Shown here piece after piece: positions 41,080 through 45,882 of a stretch of 64,000 bases of DNA. How positions within the stretch are numbered: the stretch's first letter is position 1; each line of letters opens with the position of its first letter. The notes under the pieces were generated by a model, which ran no database searches, was not told the DNA's origin, and saw only the letters and a list, made by a program, of their open reading frames with translations. The position numbers and the translations under genes are program-made. The stretch lies in the NCBI GenBank assembly GCA_949297765.1, contig CASFTV010000017.1:1-64000 (forward strand), written 5' to 3'. The DNA comes from an uncultured bacterium (lineage in GTDB: Bacteria > Verrucomicrobiota > Lentisphaeria > Victivallales > UBA1829).

Positions 41080-42261
41080 TCAGACAAACCGGACGCGCAC
41101 TTCCTTCATGTACTGATCCCGCAGACTCTGCTCCAGACGCTTTACAATGTTGCGCCGGAACTCCAGATCCAGCGGAAGATTCGGATCCTGATACGCTTCG
41201 TTGATCTTGGTCCCCACGATGATTTCAATAACGTCGTATTTGCGGAGCAGATTCGCGAGCCGTCCCGCCGGATCGAGCTTCTGCAGTTCGTGCTTTTCCA
41301 GATAGGAGGCGGCGCGGGTCAGCGTGAAGATTCCTTCGGTCACCAGATCAATGCCGGGAATGAGCGACGGCGGAGGCAGATCCCCCGCATACGATTCAAA
41401 ATCCGCCTTCAGCGGCAGATTCAGCTCCCGCGCGACAATCTCCGCCGACGTTCCTCCGCAGATGACTTTTGCCCCGTCGAAATTCCGGAACAGCGCCCCG
41501 ATCTCCGCATCGCGCGCCGGGTCCACCGGCGGCCCCGTGAACAGCAGAAGTTTGTGCGGCGTCCGGAAATGGATGCAGGCCACCGTGATGTCGTCCGCCG
41601 GACGCAGATGCGGCTCCTGCGCAATCGCCTGACGGAGCATCCGTTCCGAAAGCTCCTGCGCGCCGATCGACGGATTCTGCGCAACCTGTTCCACCGCATA
41701 CGCCTCCGCTCCGGAGGTCTGCCAGCCGAGCGGAAGGTGCGGCGTTCCGAGTCCGGCCTGGCTCACTCCGTCGGAAAAGAACAGAAGATGATCTTCCGGA
41801 AGCGCCTGAAAATGAAACGCCGCCATCATGCGGTCCTGGTATTTCGGAGAGACAAATGTGCAGCCGGTGATATTGTGCGGCCGTCCGCGGCGGAGAAGGA
41901 TGAATTCCGGATTCCCCATCTCCACCAGATTGATCCAGCCGCCGGGACGGATGTCCACGATGGTGAACGTGGAATAGCTGACATCCCGGTCCCGGCTCAC
42001 CGGAAGGGCGTCCATCATGATCTCCGCCGAGTGGACGATCTCGCGTTCCGCCGCGACAAATTTCAGTGCCATCGTGGCGGTCATGGTTGCAAGAATGTTC
42101 GCTTTGACGCCGTGTCCCATTCCGTCCGCGAGAACCGCGAGAAGGCGTCCCTCCTCCGGAATGCGCCGGAATTTGAGGACATCGCCGCAGATCCGCTCGT
42201 CATAGTGCGTGCAGTGGCTGCTGCCGGTGTCGATGAACAGATGGTCGGTCTGCTGGTTCAT
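41080..42261 (-). CDS. SpoIIE-type protein phosphatase
   Basis: A 393-residue protein. Residues about 15-225 form a PP2C-like SpoIIE phosphatase domain: DVLKFRRI, LLAVLADGMGHGVKA with the metal-binding Asp, LLFFSDGV and the closing PADDITVACI. The C-terminal 165 residues are a separate unknown alpha/beta domain with FDGAKVICGGTSAEI. It overlaps the hydrogenase gene by ATGA. Pairing of a hydrogen-sensing hydrogenase with a phosphatase is known for group C [FeFe] hydrogenases, so it likely relays the H2 signal to a phosphoprotein. Confidence 0.85.
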   Translation of the reverse strand: MNQQTDHLFIDTGSSHCTHYDERICGDVLKFRRIPEEGRLLAVLADGMGHGVKANILATMTATMALKFVAAEREIVHSAEIMMDALPVSRDRDVSYSTFTIVDIRPGGWINLVEMGNPEFILLRRGRPHNITGCTFVSPKYQDRMMAAFHFQALPEDHLLFFSDGVSQAGLGTPHLPLGWQTSGAEAYAVEQVAQNPSIGAQELSERMLRQAIAQEPHLRPADDITVACIHFRTPHKLLLFTGPPVDPARDAEIGALFRNFDGAKVICGGTSAEIVARELNLPLKADFESYAGDLPPPSLIPGIDLVTEGIFTLTRAASYLEKHELQKLDPAGRLANLLRKYDVIEIIVGTKINEAYQDPNLPLDLEFRRNIVKRLEQSLRDQYMKEVRVRFV

Positions 42262-44006
42262 TTTCCGAAACTCTCCATGGCTTCGCGCTGTTTGAGGGTG
42301 TCGCTGTCGGCATAGTCGTCGGCGATGGAGCGGAGGAGAAGCTCGGTGTCGGCGATCTGCTCGCCGAGACGGCTGGCGATTTCCTGGACCGATGCCAGAT
42401 TTTTGTCGATCACCTCCCGCGCCCGCGCCGCGATCTGTTCCCGGCGGAATTCGGTGTTGGTCACGTCGAAGATCGCGGCTCCGACCGTTTCGCCCGGCTC
42501 GATCAGGAAGATGTTCACATTGAAAAGTTTTTTCCCGACCTTCATGGAATCGCGCCGGATCTCTTTGCCCGTCTCCAGCGCCGACTCAAACAGATTGGAG
42601 AACGGAACGATTCTCCGCAGATCCGCTCCCGCCAGACCGGGAGACGCCTCAAACGCGATTTCCGTATCCTCTCCGAACAGCTTCGCAAAATTGAGGTTGC
42701 ATTCGATAATCTGGAGTTTCCGGTCGCAGATGACCACTCCCGACGAAATGCTCCGCAGAAGCGCGTTCGCCTTCTTCTGCGCCTGTTTCTTGAGATAGGA
42801 GACGCACATGGACGGTTCCGCGCGCCCGGCGAGCATCGCCTGCGCAAAGTTGCGGCAGGTGTCGTATCCGCAGCCGTCGCAGTTGAGTTCGTCTTCCGGT
42901 GTGGTTTTCCCGATGCTCCGCAGCGCCTCCGTCAGTTCCCGCGAGGCCGGAAGCGCGTTGACGATCGCTCCCGGATCGAAGGATTCCCGGATGCTTCCCG
43001 CCGTCTCGCGGAGTTTCGGGTGATCGGGAAATTTCGTCCGGCAGAGCACCCGCAGGCGCTCGTGAAGTCCCGGGGAATTGTGCTCGGCGCACGGACCGTG
43101 CACACAGCCGCCCGAACAGGCCAGCATTTCCACAAACACAAAGTTTTCCGGCGAGACCGATTCCAGTCCGCTGAGCGCAAGTTTGAAGCTCCGGCAGCCG
43201 GCAAGCGTTGCAAAATGGACATTCCGGTTCGTCAGCTGGAACTGGATCGTGTCGTTCATCCCTCCTTCGATCGGGTAGCGTGCGCCCTCCTCCGCGGATT
43301 CCGGAACGAAGGTTTCCGCTCCGTCCGCGGGGAACTGCTCGGGAGAAACTCCCGCCTCCCGCAGCATCTGCCGCAGTTCGGGATAGGTCAGTGCCGCGTT
43401 GAGCAGTTCCGGATGGCGGTCCGCCTCGTTCTTCTTCGCGATGCACGGCCCGGCGAACACAATCCGGATCTCCTCCCCGAACCGGTCCCGCAGCAGACGG
43501 CAGTGCGAAAGCAGCGGCGAGGACACCTTTGTGATCTTCTCCGAAAGATGCGGCAGGTATTTGCAGACATAGTCCACCGCCGCCGGACACGCAGACGACA
43601 GAAGAAGATCCGGCGTTCCCGTGTTCAGCTCCTCCGCCAGAGCAAAGGAAACCAGCTGCGCGCCAAGCGCAGTTTCACTCACTCCGGCGAATCCGAGCTT
43701 TTTCAGCGCGCGGATCATCTGCGACGGCGCAATTCCCGGAAATTCGCTGATCCACGACGGCGCAAGGGAAAGGTAAACCGGCCGCTCCTCTCCGAGAAGC
43801 TGGCGGACGAACGCCGTGTCGTTCCGAACCTGTTTCGCCTTGACCGGACACACTTCCACGCACCGTCCGCACGCAATGCACATTTCCGGGATCACCGCGG
43901 CATGTCCATCCCGCACGCGAATCGCCTTGACCGGGCAGTGCCGGACGCATTTGTAGCAGTCCTGACATTCCGCCTCCAGAGTAAACACCGGATAAGAATG
44001 ATTCAT
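42258..44006 (-). CDS. Sensory [FeFe] hydrogenase with PAS domain
   Basis: A 582-residue protein. Two 4Fe-4S ferredoxin motifs lie at Cys14/17/20/24 and Cys43/46/49/53. The hydrogenase H-cluster domain has its four Cys ligands at 140 (SSACPAAV), 188 (FAGPCIAKKNEA), 297 and 301 (VEMLACSGGC). A further cluster motif sits at Cys376/379/384/401 (NCDGCGYDTCRNFAQA), and a PAS domain at about 415-520 is followed by a helical tail. This order is that of sensory (group C, HydS-like) enzymes rather than bulk H2 producers. The start follows AGG and avoids an upstream reading that crosses the promoter. Coupled with the SpoIIE phosphatase. Confidence 0.88.
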   Translation of the reverse strand: MNHSYPVFTLEAECQDCYKCVRHCPVKAIRVRDGHAAVIPEMCIACGRCVEVCPVKAKQVRNDTAFVRQLLGEERPVYLSLAPSWISEFPGIAPSQMIRALKKLGFAGVSETALGAQLVSFALAEELNTGTPDLLLSSACPAAVDYVCKYLPHLSEKITKVSSPLLSHCRLLRDRFGEEIRIVFAGPCIAKKNEADRHPELLNAALTYPELRQMLREAGVSPEQFPADGAETFVPESAEEGARYPIEGGMNDTIQFQLTNRNVHFATLAGCRSFKLALSGLESVSPENFVFVEMLACSGGCVHGPCAEHNSPGLHERLRVLCRTKFPDHPKLRETAGSIRESFDPGAIVNALPASRELTEALRSIGKTTPEDELNCDGCGYDTCRNFAQAMLAGRAEPSMCVSYLKKQAQKKANALLRSISSGVVICDRKLQIIECNLNFAKLFGEDTEIAFEASPGLAGADLRRIVPFSNLFESALETGKEIRRDSMKVGKKLFNVNIFLIEPGETVGAAIFDVTNTEFRREQIAARAREVIDKNLASVQEIASRLGEQIADTELLLRSIADDYADSDTLKQREAMESFGK

Positions 44007-44052
44007 CGTCAACCTCGCATTTGAAAATTCGCCGTTCTGTCCGCTTTTCATG

Positions 44053-44081
44053 AGTATACATGAACTGCGCGGAACTTTCAA
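44053..44081 (-). promoter_or_regulatory. Promoter of the sensory hydrogenase operon
   Basis: On the minus strand TTGAAA (44076-44081) and TATACT (44053-44058) are 17 bp apart, about 47-75 nt upstream of the hydrogenase start. Confidence 0.65.
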
Positions 44082-44107
44082 ATGCGGAAACCGATTTTTT
44101 CTCAAAA

Positions 44108-44137: not shown

Positions 44138-44488
44138 TTATTCTCCGTTTTTCCCTTCCGGGACGTAGATGATCTCCCCGCTTTCCAGACGGTATGCGAT
44201 TCCGACACGCTCCCCCCGTCCCGATCCGGTGGTCTTTTCCGATTTGAAGCGGGAGACTTTGTTGTTCTTCTTGACGATGATTTCCATATCCGGTTTGCCG
44301 GCGTTCTTGACATAGGTGACATCCTCCGCCGTCAGGAATTCGGTCATCCGGCTCTGGATCACGAAGGCGACCATCAGCGCAACGGCGAACACCATTGCCG
44401 CGTCGAACAGATTGATCAGTCCGCTCAGCGGATCGCAGTCGTCGTCCGTCAGGAACGACTCTGCGTCATACCGTCCCGGCCTGCGCAT
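44138..44488 (-). CDS. DUF2149 protein (HmuV-like)
   Basis: A 116-residue protein with one membrane helix (about 28-46) and the DUF2149 signature: basic start, then FLTDDDCDPLSGLINLFDAA. The soluble tail ends near GIAYRLESGEIIYVPEG. It resembles HmuV of the Porphyromonas/Bacteroides hmu haem-uptake locus and follows an ExbB-like gene as there. It is thought to act like ExbD in an energising complex. The start lies inside the MotA/TolQ gene (23-nt overlap). Confidence 0.82.
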   Translation of the reverse strand: MRRPGRYDAESFLTDDDCDPLSGLINLFDAAMVFAVALMVAFVIQSRMTEFLTAEDVTYVKNAGKPDMEIIVKKNNKVSRFKSEKTTGSGRGERVGIAYRLESGEIIYVPEGKNGE

Positions 44489-45074
44489 GAACGCCCTCCT
44501 TTCTCAGGCGGAGATCCAGCGCATACCGCAGCGAGGCAATCTCGTCCGCGAACCAGTGCCGTTTCACCGAGTAGAGCAGAAGTCCGACTCCCGCAACAAA
44601 AATACCGACCACCGTGGTCCCGAATGCAATCTGCATGTTATAGGCCATCGAATGGATGTTTCCGGAGGCAAGCCCCGCAAGTGCCGGACCCATCGGAATC
44701 AGAGTTCCCATCAGTCCGAGCATCGGACCGATCTTCATCATGAAGCGGGCGCGCTCCAGCTCGTGCTCATACTGGCGGGAAAAATCGAAAATCCGTTTTT
44801 CGCAGTGGACCGGATCCCATTCCAGTTCGTGAAGCGCCCGCAGATGCCGGGCGAAGGTTCCGCCGCCGAGCATTTCCGTGGTGAGGTCCCTGTCCGCGCG
44901 GAGCGTTTTCATGATCTCCTCGCGCCGCTTCCGCTGCTGCAGAAGCGAAAGCCAGGTGGAACAGAAGCCCCCCAGTTCGACCAGTGCAAAAATCATCGCC
45001 GCAAGCAGCAGCACAATGTCGGGCAGCATGAGACTTGCGGAAACCCAGTTCAGAATTTCGGTGATGTAATGCAT
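44466..45074 (-). CDS. MotA/TolQ/ExbB proton-channel protein (HmuU-like)
   Basis: A 202-residue protein with three membrane helices (about 15-35, 112-132 and 150-170). GPMLGLMGTLIPMGPALAGL followed by MQIAFGTTVVGIFVAG is the conserved proton-channel region of the MotA/TolQ/ExbB family. It converts the proton gradient into mechanical work for an outer-membrane or envelope partner. It sits between the HmuT-like and DUF2149 genes with overlaps on both sides. Confidence 0.87.
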   Translation of the reverse strand: MHYITEILNWVSASLMLPDIVLLLAAMIFALVELGGFCSTWLSLLQQRKRREEIMKTLRADRDLTTEMLGGGTFARHLRALHELEWDPVHCEKRIFDFSRQYEHELERARFMMKIGPMLGLMGTLIPMGPALAGLASGNIHSMAYNMQIAFGTTVVGIFVAGVGLLLYSVKRHWFADEIASLRYALDLRLRKEGVHAQAGTV

Positions 45075-45766
45075 GTTTGTTTTTTATCCTTCCTTATTCT
45101 GTAAAGTTGAAATCCGAGCGTTGAAAGTGCCGTCACGGCGGCGAGCGAAGCGAGAATGAGCAGATCTCTTTTCCAGTCGGCCTCCTGCATTCCGGCGCCG
45201 TCCGAAAGCCGTCCTTCCGCTGCCGCGGGGAGAAATACCGCGAGAAGAACCAGCATCCAGCTCGCGGTCAGAGCCCCTGAAACACGATCCTGTTCCGTCG
45301 GACGGAGAAGCGCGAGAAGTTCGCACATCAGTCCGCTGAACACCGCAAAACCGCCTGCCGTCCACCAGAGAATCGTCGAAAATTCGTACCGGACCAGATG
45401 GTTGAAACCGACCGCCGTCAAATACATGACCGCAACCGGAAGAAGAAGCGACGGCAGAAGCGAAAGATATTTCCAGTGATGAATCCGTTTCCCAAGCTCG
45501 CGTTCCTTCAGAAGCGAAAGTCCGGCCGGAAGCGCAAGAAGCTCCTGAATGACGATCAGTGCGCAGAGGTCCTTCAGATTCTCTCCGCTGGAAAGAAACC
45601 GGTCGATCGCCTGAAGATTGCAGCTCATCAGCCGTTCCCGGAAGACAAATGCCGGAACAGTCGCCGCTGCCAGAAGAATCCAGCGCACCGGTCGCGGAAG
45701 CAGCGTCAGCTTCAGAAGGCTGAGAAGCCACGCCGCCGCAAGAATTGTCCCGATCAGACCGCCCAA
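45050..45766 (-). CDS. Integral membrane protein (HmuT-like)
   Basis: A 238-residue protein with six to seven membrane helices and short loops. I recognise it mainly by position, first in a three-gene set with an ExbB-like and a DUF2149 protein, as hmuT is in haem-uptake loci. The start is a TTG preceded by GGGAG at 8 nt; no in-frame ATG lies nearby. Two palindromic operators and a promoter precede it. Confidence 0.6.
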   Translation of the reverse strand: MGGLIGTILAAAWLLSLLKLTLLPRPVRWILLAAATVPAFVFRERLMSCNLQAIDRFLSSGENLKDLCALIVIQELLALPAGLSLLKERELGKRIHHWKYLSLLPSLLLPVAVMYLTAVGFNHLVRYEFSTILWWTAGGFAVFSGLMCELLALLRPTEQDRVSGALTASWMLVLLAVFLPAAAEGRLSDGAGMQEADWKRDLLILASLAAVTALSTLGFQLYRIRKDKKQTCITSPKF

Positions 45767-45811: not shown

Positions 45812-45831
45812 TTATTAGATATGGCTAATAA
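45812..45831. promoter_or_regulatory. Palindromic operator 1 of the HmuTUV-like operon
   Basis: TTATTAG and CTAATAA form a perfect 7-bp inverted repeat with a 6-bp spacer, overlapping the -10. The TTAG...CTAA form resembles DtxR/IdeR-type or other metal-regulator boxes. Confidence 0.6.
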
Positions 45832-45857
45832 TATACACGCGAAAGCGGATGTTTCAA
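45830..45857 (-). promoter_or_regulatory. Promoter of the HmuTUV-like operon
   Basis: On the minus strand TTGAAA (45852-45857) and TATATT (45830-45835) are 16 bp apart. The -10 adjoins operator 1 and the -35 lies 5 bp from operator 2. Confidence 0.6.
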
Positions 45858-45862
45858 GACGT

Positions 45863-45882
45863 TTATTAGAGATTTCTAATTT
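45863..45882. promoter_or_regulatory. Palindromic operator 2 of the HmuTUV-like operon
   Basis: TTATTAG with spacer 6 and CTAATTT: the same half-site as operator 1, 5 of 7 positions paired, centred 51 bp upstream (about five helical turns), so two dimers could bind the same DNA face. Confidence 0.5.

Follow-up and report, generated by a model that had tools for sequence, protein, structure and literature searches.

The window analysed here, a stretch of 64,000 nucleotides from the genome of an uncultured Lentisphaeria bacterium (Victivallales), contains three overlapping genes in the order hmuT-hmuU-hmuV, which is also the order of Bacteroidota haem operons according to the accessible parts of two reports (PMC13227078, PMC10434189). 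Beside this module we recognised no receptor, no HmuS and no HmuY. This arrangement raises the question as to what an ExbB-like energising module may do when no receptor is encoded next to it. A first-pass annotation had proposed that it serves another metal or cofactor, or that it energises distant receptors. We come to a different reading: these genes are probably the hmuTUV part of a split system for the extraction of iron from haem, in which the energy provided by HmuU and HmuV is used at the inner membrane and not on a TonB receptor.

Table 1. Features of the hmuTUV locus and of the prepilin-X pair in the same genome. Positions refer to the window unless a locus (L020) is given.
Feature	Position	Strand	Description	Evidence or remark
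hmuT	45050..45766	-	238-aa polytopic protein of the inner membrane, start codon TTG	profile reaches Bacteroidota HmuT
hmuU	44466..45074	-	ExbB/TolQ/MotA-type proton channel, 202 aa	PF01618 MotA_ExbB, 1.8e-10
hmuV	44138..44488	-	DUF2149 protein, 116 aa, one TM helix followed by a small beta domain	PF09919, 1e-30
operator copy 1	45814..45829		ATTAG-N6-CTAAT, 48 nt 5' of hmuT	longer form TTATTAG-N6-CTAATAA exact at 45812-45831
operator copy 2	45865..45880		ATTAG-N6-CTAAT, exact 16-mer	longer form with 2 mismatches
promoter-like site	45828..45857	-	TTGAAA-16-TATATT, between the two operators	10/12 positions match; consensus match only
P (prepilin-like)	L020:8633-9451
X	L020:8166-8618

The reading frames overlap by 25 nt (hmuT/hmuU) and 23 nt (hmuU/hmuV), and hmuV is the only DUF2149 gene in the genome (4.23 Mb, 98.4% complete). 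The product of hmuT has no Pfam match above the cut-off. We examined its relationships with a profile built from 20 Lentisphaeria proteins encoded at the HmuT position in the window and in related genomes. Among 5149 open reading frames from 80 loci of other genomes this profile matched 51, all of them directly 5' of an ExbB-like gene (46 within 250 bp of hmuU, the other five placed there from their coordinates). Fifty of these matches have E values of at most 1e-3, one of them from L192, a contig already inside the profile. The HmuT proteins of Bacteroidota operons are found in this way as well. By profile comparison, the first gene of the module is a genuine HmuT homologue, and the description of the locus as an HmuTUV-like module in hmu order with an HmuT-type first gene holds. 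A Yersinia-type HmuTUV ABC haem importer could be ruled out, since T, U and V contain no ABC-transporter domain.

In the HmuU family alignment T124 is invariant (106/106), while T153 and T154 are conserved in 104 and 105 of the 106 sequences, a pattern which we take to correspond to the Thr residues of ExbB. The Asp that opens the TM helix of HmuV is invariant in the 64 rows of alignment A3 (62 of the 75 listed HmuV, one archaeal sequence and the window sequence), and may correspond to Asp25 of ExbD. The profile of HmuV gave only chance matches to solved structures and no sequence match to ExbD or TolR; its structural model (pLDDT 62.4) was too poor for a fold search. HmuU, searched as a single sequence, found no solved structure at E ≤ 1. 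The genes that follow hmuV in the window (41080-44105, minus strand) encode an [FeFe]-hydrogenase-like protein (Fer4/PAS) and a phosphatase of the SpoIIE type. The same pair follows HmuS in one other genome (G019, L202 3627-6567, plus strand), and these were the only two places among the open reading frames searched at E ≤ 1e-20.

The reported lack of a CobN-like HmuS is correct for the neighbourhood of the module, but not for the genome. The single CobN-family gene of this genome (G000) lies on another contig than hmuTUV and well inside it (G000:C12:74974-78363). The best match of its product among solved structures is PDB 9d26, the haem de-chelatase HmuS (1e-299, 1000.9 bits), as compared to 381.8 bits for ChlH and 350.2 bits for CobN. 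The alignment with 9d26 starts at residue 2 and extends over nearly the whole length. Judged by this alignment the gene is hmuS, and HmuS is therefore missing only locally. In the accessible part of their report, Nath and colleagues assign the haem ligands of HmuS to Met-79 and His-254, and the active site to His-538, His-1209 and Glu-1212 (PMC12583661). In the aligned columns all five residues are kept in each of eight Lentisphaeria HmuS proteins encoded apart from TUV, and in each of twelve from TUVS operons (the check took sequences of at least 1150 aa, and three TUVS loci truncated at contig ends are absent from the twelve). Hydropathy analysis located an N-terminal TM anchor in 20 of these 20 proteins and a C-terminal one in 19, with both present in all eight HmuS that are separate from TUV.

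These residues bear on the proposal that the substrate is not haem iron but a different metal or tetrapyrrole, such as cobalt or a cobamide. HmuS does belong to the CobN superfamily, and the same lineage contains paralogous U-V-S sets without the haem ligands: among U-V-S sets that lack HmuT, the ligands of HmuS are replaced in four of five. This observation indicates that U-V can serve other substrates, and also that, in this phylum, it is the T-linked set that carries the haem signature. The T-linked HmuS, however, keeps all five haem and active-site residues, and its operator is common to feoAB, flavodoxin and a DtxR-family gene, as described below. Because the ligands and the active site are kept and the operator marks an apparent iron regulon, we regard a role with another metal or cofactor as quite improbable. 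The HmuT-less group includes additional U-V-S sets at L104, L107 and L108, with no operator nearby; these probably serve another substrate.

The operator ATTAG-N6-CTAAT connects the dispersed genes. The region of 2.1 kb that we searched contains three promoter-like sites (0.6 expected from shuffled sequences), and the one listed in Table 1 is flanked by two operators, which is the arrangement expected for repression. The exact 16-mer occurs at six sites in the genome, and a reversed control pattern at none. Two sites precede hmuTUV, one the FMN_bind-hmuS pair, two a prepilin-X pair and one a gene for a pyruvate formate-lyase-like glycyl radical enzyme. An SNF2 gene was also considered as the target of the two operators of the prepilin-X pair, but this gene, which lies on the same strand, terminates ahead of them, and we therefore assigned them to prepilin-X. 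The search for a CobN-like gene behind the same operator, which had been suggested as a check, thus returned HmuS. The glycyl radical enzyme (L019 9609-11900, plus strand) is encoded directly behind the exact operator at G000:C12:107564, and may perhaps represent an iron-sparing switch.

In eight of the 25 genomes with DUF2149 the exact operator occurs at 51 sites, as compared to 3 for the control. With at most one mismatch it is found 5' of 20 of the 21 T-bearing loci in the taxonomic order of the window, and the contig of the remaining locus starts inside hmuT. The exact operator precedes all eight HmuS loci that are separate from TUV. It also occurs 5' of feoB in seven loci, six of them in relatives and the seventh being feoAB of the window genome (one mismatch), 5' of DUF3793/flavodoxin genes in four loci and 5' of a DtxR-family gene in one locus of relatives. 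The DUF3793 genes are those of L237, L239, L244 and L246, two of which are shown with flavodoxin after them. Since feoAB, flavodoxin and DtxR-family genes share this element, it looks like an iron-starvation operator that marks an iron regulon, and induction by iron limitation is predicted. The cognate repressor would be a metal sensor, probably of the DtxR family. The window genome encodes one clear DtxR-FeoA protein and two Fur-family proteins, and the stretches examined for these genes contain no operator at up to 2 mismatches. A Fur-like gene, just under the Pfam cut-off, is located in the operon of one relative, and the repressor may instead belong to the Fur family.

According to the accessible part of PMC12583661, HmuU and HmuV power HmuR in Bacteroides, and by analogy the window genes could work as ExbB/ExbD and energise TonB-dependent receptors whose genes lie elsewhere. 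Most Bacteroidota loci do contain a receptor beside S-T-U-V, so that HmuU/V may well act on a receptor there. The absence of a receptor, first noted beside the module, extends to the entire window genome, in which PF00593, PF07715 and the TonB C-terminal domain PF03544 are all without a match. Among 194 genomes sampled from the phylum of the window, DUF2149 is present in 25. A CobN-family gene accompanies it in 24 of these 25, but is found in only one of 20 genomes without DUF2149 (those listed, of 169; Fisher p about 2e-10, a value that ignores shared ancestry). The Plug domain (PF07715) is absent from 22 of the 25 genomes, all 22 of which contain a CobN-family gene and 21 of which contain T-U-V. 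TonB_C matches occur in 15 of the 25 and are mostly weak. G173 has no HmuT in the stretch examined, and G083 contains only a short DUF2149 fragment and no CobN-family gene. One relative that keeps TonB receptors (G126, L205) encodes a receptor with an exact operator (ATTAGGTTAACCTAAT) 5' of the gene, and hence the operator may predate receptor loss.

Among 80 loci with U-V, HmuS is encoded in 72, HmuT in 55 and a receptor within the stretch examined in 52 (L106/L114 and L086/L192 are identical contigs in two collections). HmuS was not found near U-V in eight of the 80 loci, four of which (L152, L162, L173 and L178) span roughly 11 kb or more. One of the 80 is from the archaeon Methanoculleus chikugoensis (L180), with the order DUF2162-U-V-S. 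The control genome of Methanosarcina acetivorans also contains both the DUF2149 and the CobN family. Since M. chikugoensis is an archaeon without an outer membrane, and since neither receptor nor TonB was found in the window genome, the powering of HmuR cannot explain the retention of HmuU/V here. Hence, distant receptors as the target of this module are largely refuted and extremely improbable. Haem-iron extraction without a recognisable TonB receptor instead points to an energising part that acts at the inner membrane, and from the retention of HmuU/V without any receptor we infer a step that involves HmuT and HmuS.

The window genome contains a dispersed Hmu system and not a lone module. 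T-U-V-S is contiguous in 15 related genomes and split in six. The joined operon usually has the order prepilin-X-T-U-V-S, and in most of these 15 operons the prepilin-like protein (P) and X are encoded between the operator and hmuT. The window genome distributes the same genes over three loci, namely prepilin-X, T-U-V and FMN_bind-S. Each of these pieces lies well within its contig sequence and not at an end, and therefore assembly breaks do not explain the split; the joined operon is likely the older form in view of its frequency. P is identified as prepilin-like by N_methyl and by weak DUF1559 and H-X9-DG matches, and X is an anchored protein of roughly 150 aa. Each of the 23 X genes found (18 of which served to build the X profile) is directly preceded by a P gene, and the pair in turn by an operator with no more than one mismatch. 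In a genome of the same genus (G086, L083), P-X and T-U-V diverge from a common region with three operators.

Only some of the genomes have an FMN_bind gene that adjoins hmu genes or follows the operator. In the window genome it is located 5' of hmuS, and in four loci (one in G009, two in G011 and one in G067) it lies between the operator and P-X. A search of the first loci collected gave one match. Judged by eye, the FMN_bind protein beside HmuS has an apparent signal peptide and a TGATYSS motif that is similar to a flavinylation site. Directly 5' of HmuS in Bacteroides cellulosilyticus (L179 1859-4330) there are genes for a CbiK-like chelatase and for a PepSY_TM protein. PepSY-like proteins, like extracytosolic flavinylated proteins, have been linked to iron assimilation, and the former also to electron transfer, in the accessible part of one report (PMC8238504). 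As a general electron partner of HmuS we rejected PepSY, since the two queries retrieved no homologues beyond the two loci of their origin.

HmuTUV could also be a proton-driven importer that takes intact haem or porphyrin through the inner membrane, beside HmuS and not together with it. Such transport of haem is suggested in the accessible text of PMC13227078. The AlphaFold model of HmuT (pLDDT 87.4) is helical and gave no Foldseek match at E ≤ 0.001; VIA-align superimposed it weakly on the six-TM halves of MFS carriers, with a best Z of 8.3 (rmsd 4.2, 140 residues). Z values of this size are, however, common among helical models and at the level that VIA-align warns about, and we do not claim a fold for HmuT. 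The alignment of HmuT sequences (A2) comprised 59 of the 60 listed proteins and the window sequence. The counts given above also argue against independent importers: HmuS accompanies U-V at 72 of the 80 loci and HmuT at only 55, so that U-V is linked more tightly to S. A whole-haem importer is therefore somewhat unlikely, but a serious alternative to an inner-membrane step shared with HmuS.

For this shared step we propose the following sequence of events. Under iron limitation the metal-sensing repressor would leave its operators, and HmuS, HmuTUV, FeoAB, the secreted FMN_bind protein and the prepilin-like protein with X would be made. Membrane-anchored HmuS would bind haem in the periplasm, and after reduction the haem would be stripped to protoporphyrin and Fe(II), the latter being imported by the ferrous iron importer FeoAB. 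For Bacteroides this de-chelation chemistry of HmuS has been demonstrated, according to the accessible part of PMC12583661. HmuU/HmuV would function as a proton-driven stator like ExbB/ExbD, acting on HmuT, HmuS or both at the inner membrane, and its work could be to move haem or porphyrin, or to drive the de-chelation cycle. The FMN_bind protein is a candidate for the electron carrier to HmuS, and the P-X pair, under the same apparent iron control, could serve in haem capture or in passage across the outer membrane.

A broader model would have HmuU/HmuV as a proton-driven motor of HmuS and not a TonB-type energiser, with HmuT as a membrane partner and a U-V-S core whose conservation extends from Bacteroidota to archaea. 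Haemophore and receptor would be replaced in Lentisphaeria by the iron-regulated prepilin-X pair, and the electrons for the reduction of haem iron would come from a flavinylated protein in the periplasm. We consider this full combination speculative and, taken as a whole, unlikely.

Each of these protein families, the chemistry of HmuS and the hmuTUV order are known already. As far as the open-licence literature shows, what is new is the receptor-less Lentisphaeria Hmu system, together with its operator and regulon, its partners P-X and FMN_bind, and the case against HmuU/V working on a receptor alone. The only paper there that mentions HmuS along with a Lentisphaer- name is a genome note on Elizabethkingia. 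The removal of iron from haem by HmuS was shown only recently, and the accessible parts of the published accounts leave the electron donor in the cell and the role of HmuT unsettled. These same parts are also divided on HmuU/V, assigned to the receptor in one report (PMC12583661) and, as HmuTUV, to inner-membrane transport in another (PMC13227078). A system whose genes for HmuS and HmuTUV share an operator, and which lacks a recognisable TonB receptor, separates these two roles, since the target of HmuU/V must be reachable in the absence of a receptor. It also offers candidates for the missing electron carrier (the FMN_bind protein) and for haem capture (the prepilin-like protein and X), and suggests that haem-iron extraction of the HmuS type reaches beyond Bacteroidota.

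The closest known systems are the hmuYRSTUV operons of Porphyromonas gingivalis and Bacteroides thetaiotaomicron, which share homologous T, U and V in equal order with the window, and the ligands, active-site residues and membrane anchors of HmuS with its genome. Unlike these Bacteroidota, the window genome has no HmuR-type receptor that we could find and distributes its genes over three loci with HmuS outside the T-U-V operon, and in its taxonomic order the operon includes the prepilin-like protein, X and sometimes FMN_bind. As compared to the HmuS of 9d26, the protein described here keeps the five key residues and is preceded by an FMN_bind gene. The region of the Met-rich insertion is shorter here (138 residues with 7 Met) than in the first 14 T-linked sequences listed from other genomes (142-248 residues with 9-28 Met), with a Met content below that of most Bacteroidota-type HmuS. 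Similarity to ExbB-ExbD-TonB, TolQ-TolR and MotA-MotB resides in HmuU, a PF01618 protein with conserved Thr, and in the single TM helix of HmuV with its invariant Asp at the start. In contrast to these systems, neither TonB_C nor a receptor was found in the genome, and HmuV shows no ExbD/TolR sequence match. Finally, the DUF2162-ExbB-DUF2149-CobN clusters of archaea and deltaproteobacteria (L180 and L144) share the U-V-S linkage and a polytopic protein encoded 5' of U, with DUF2162 in the place of HmuT.
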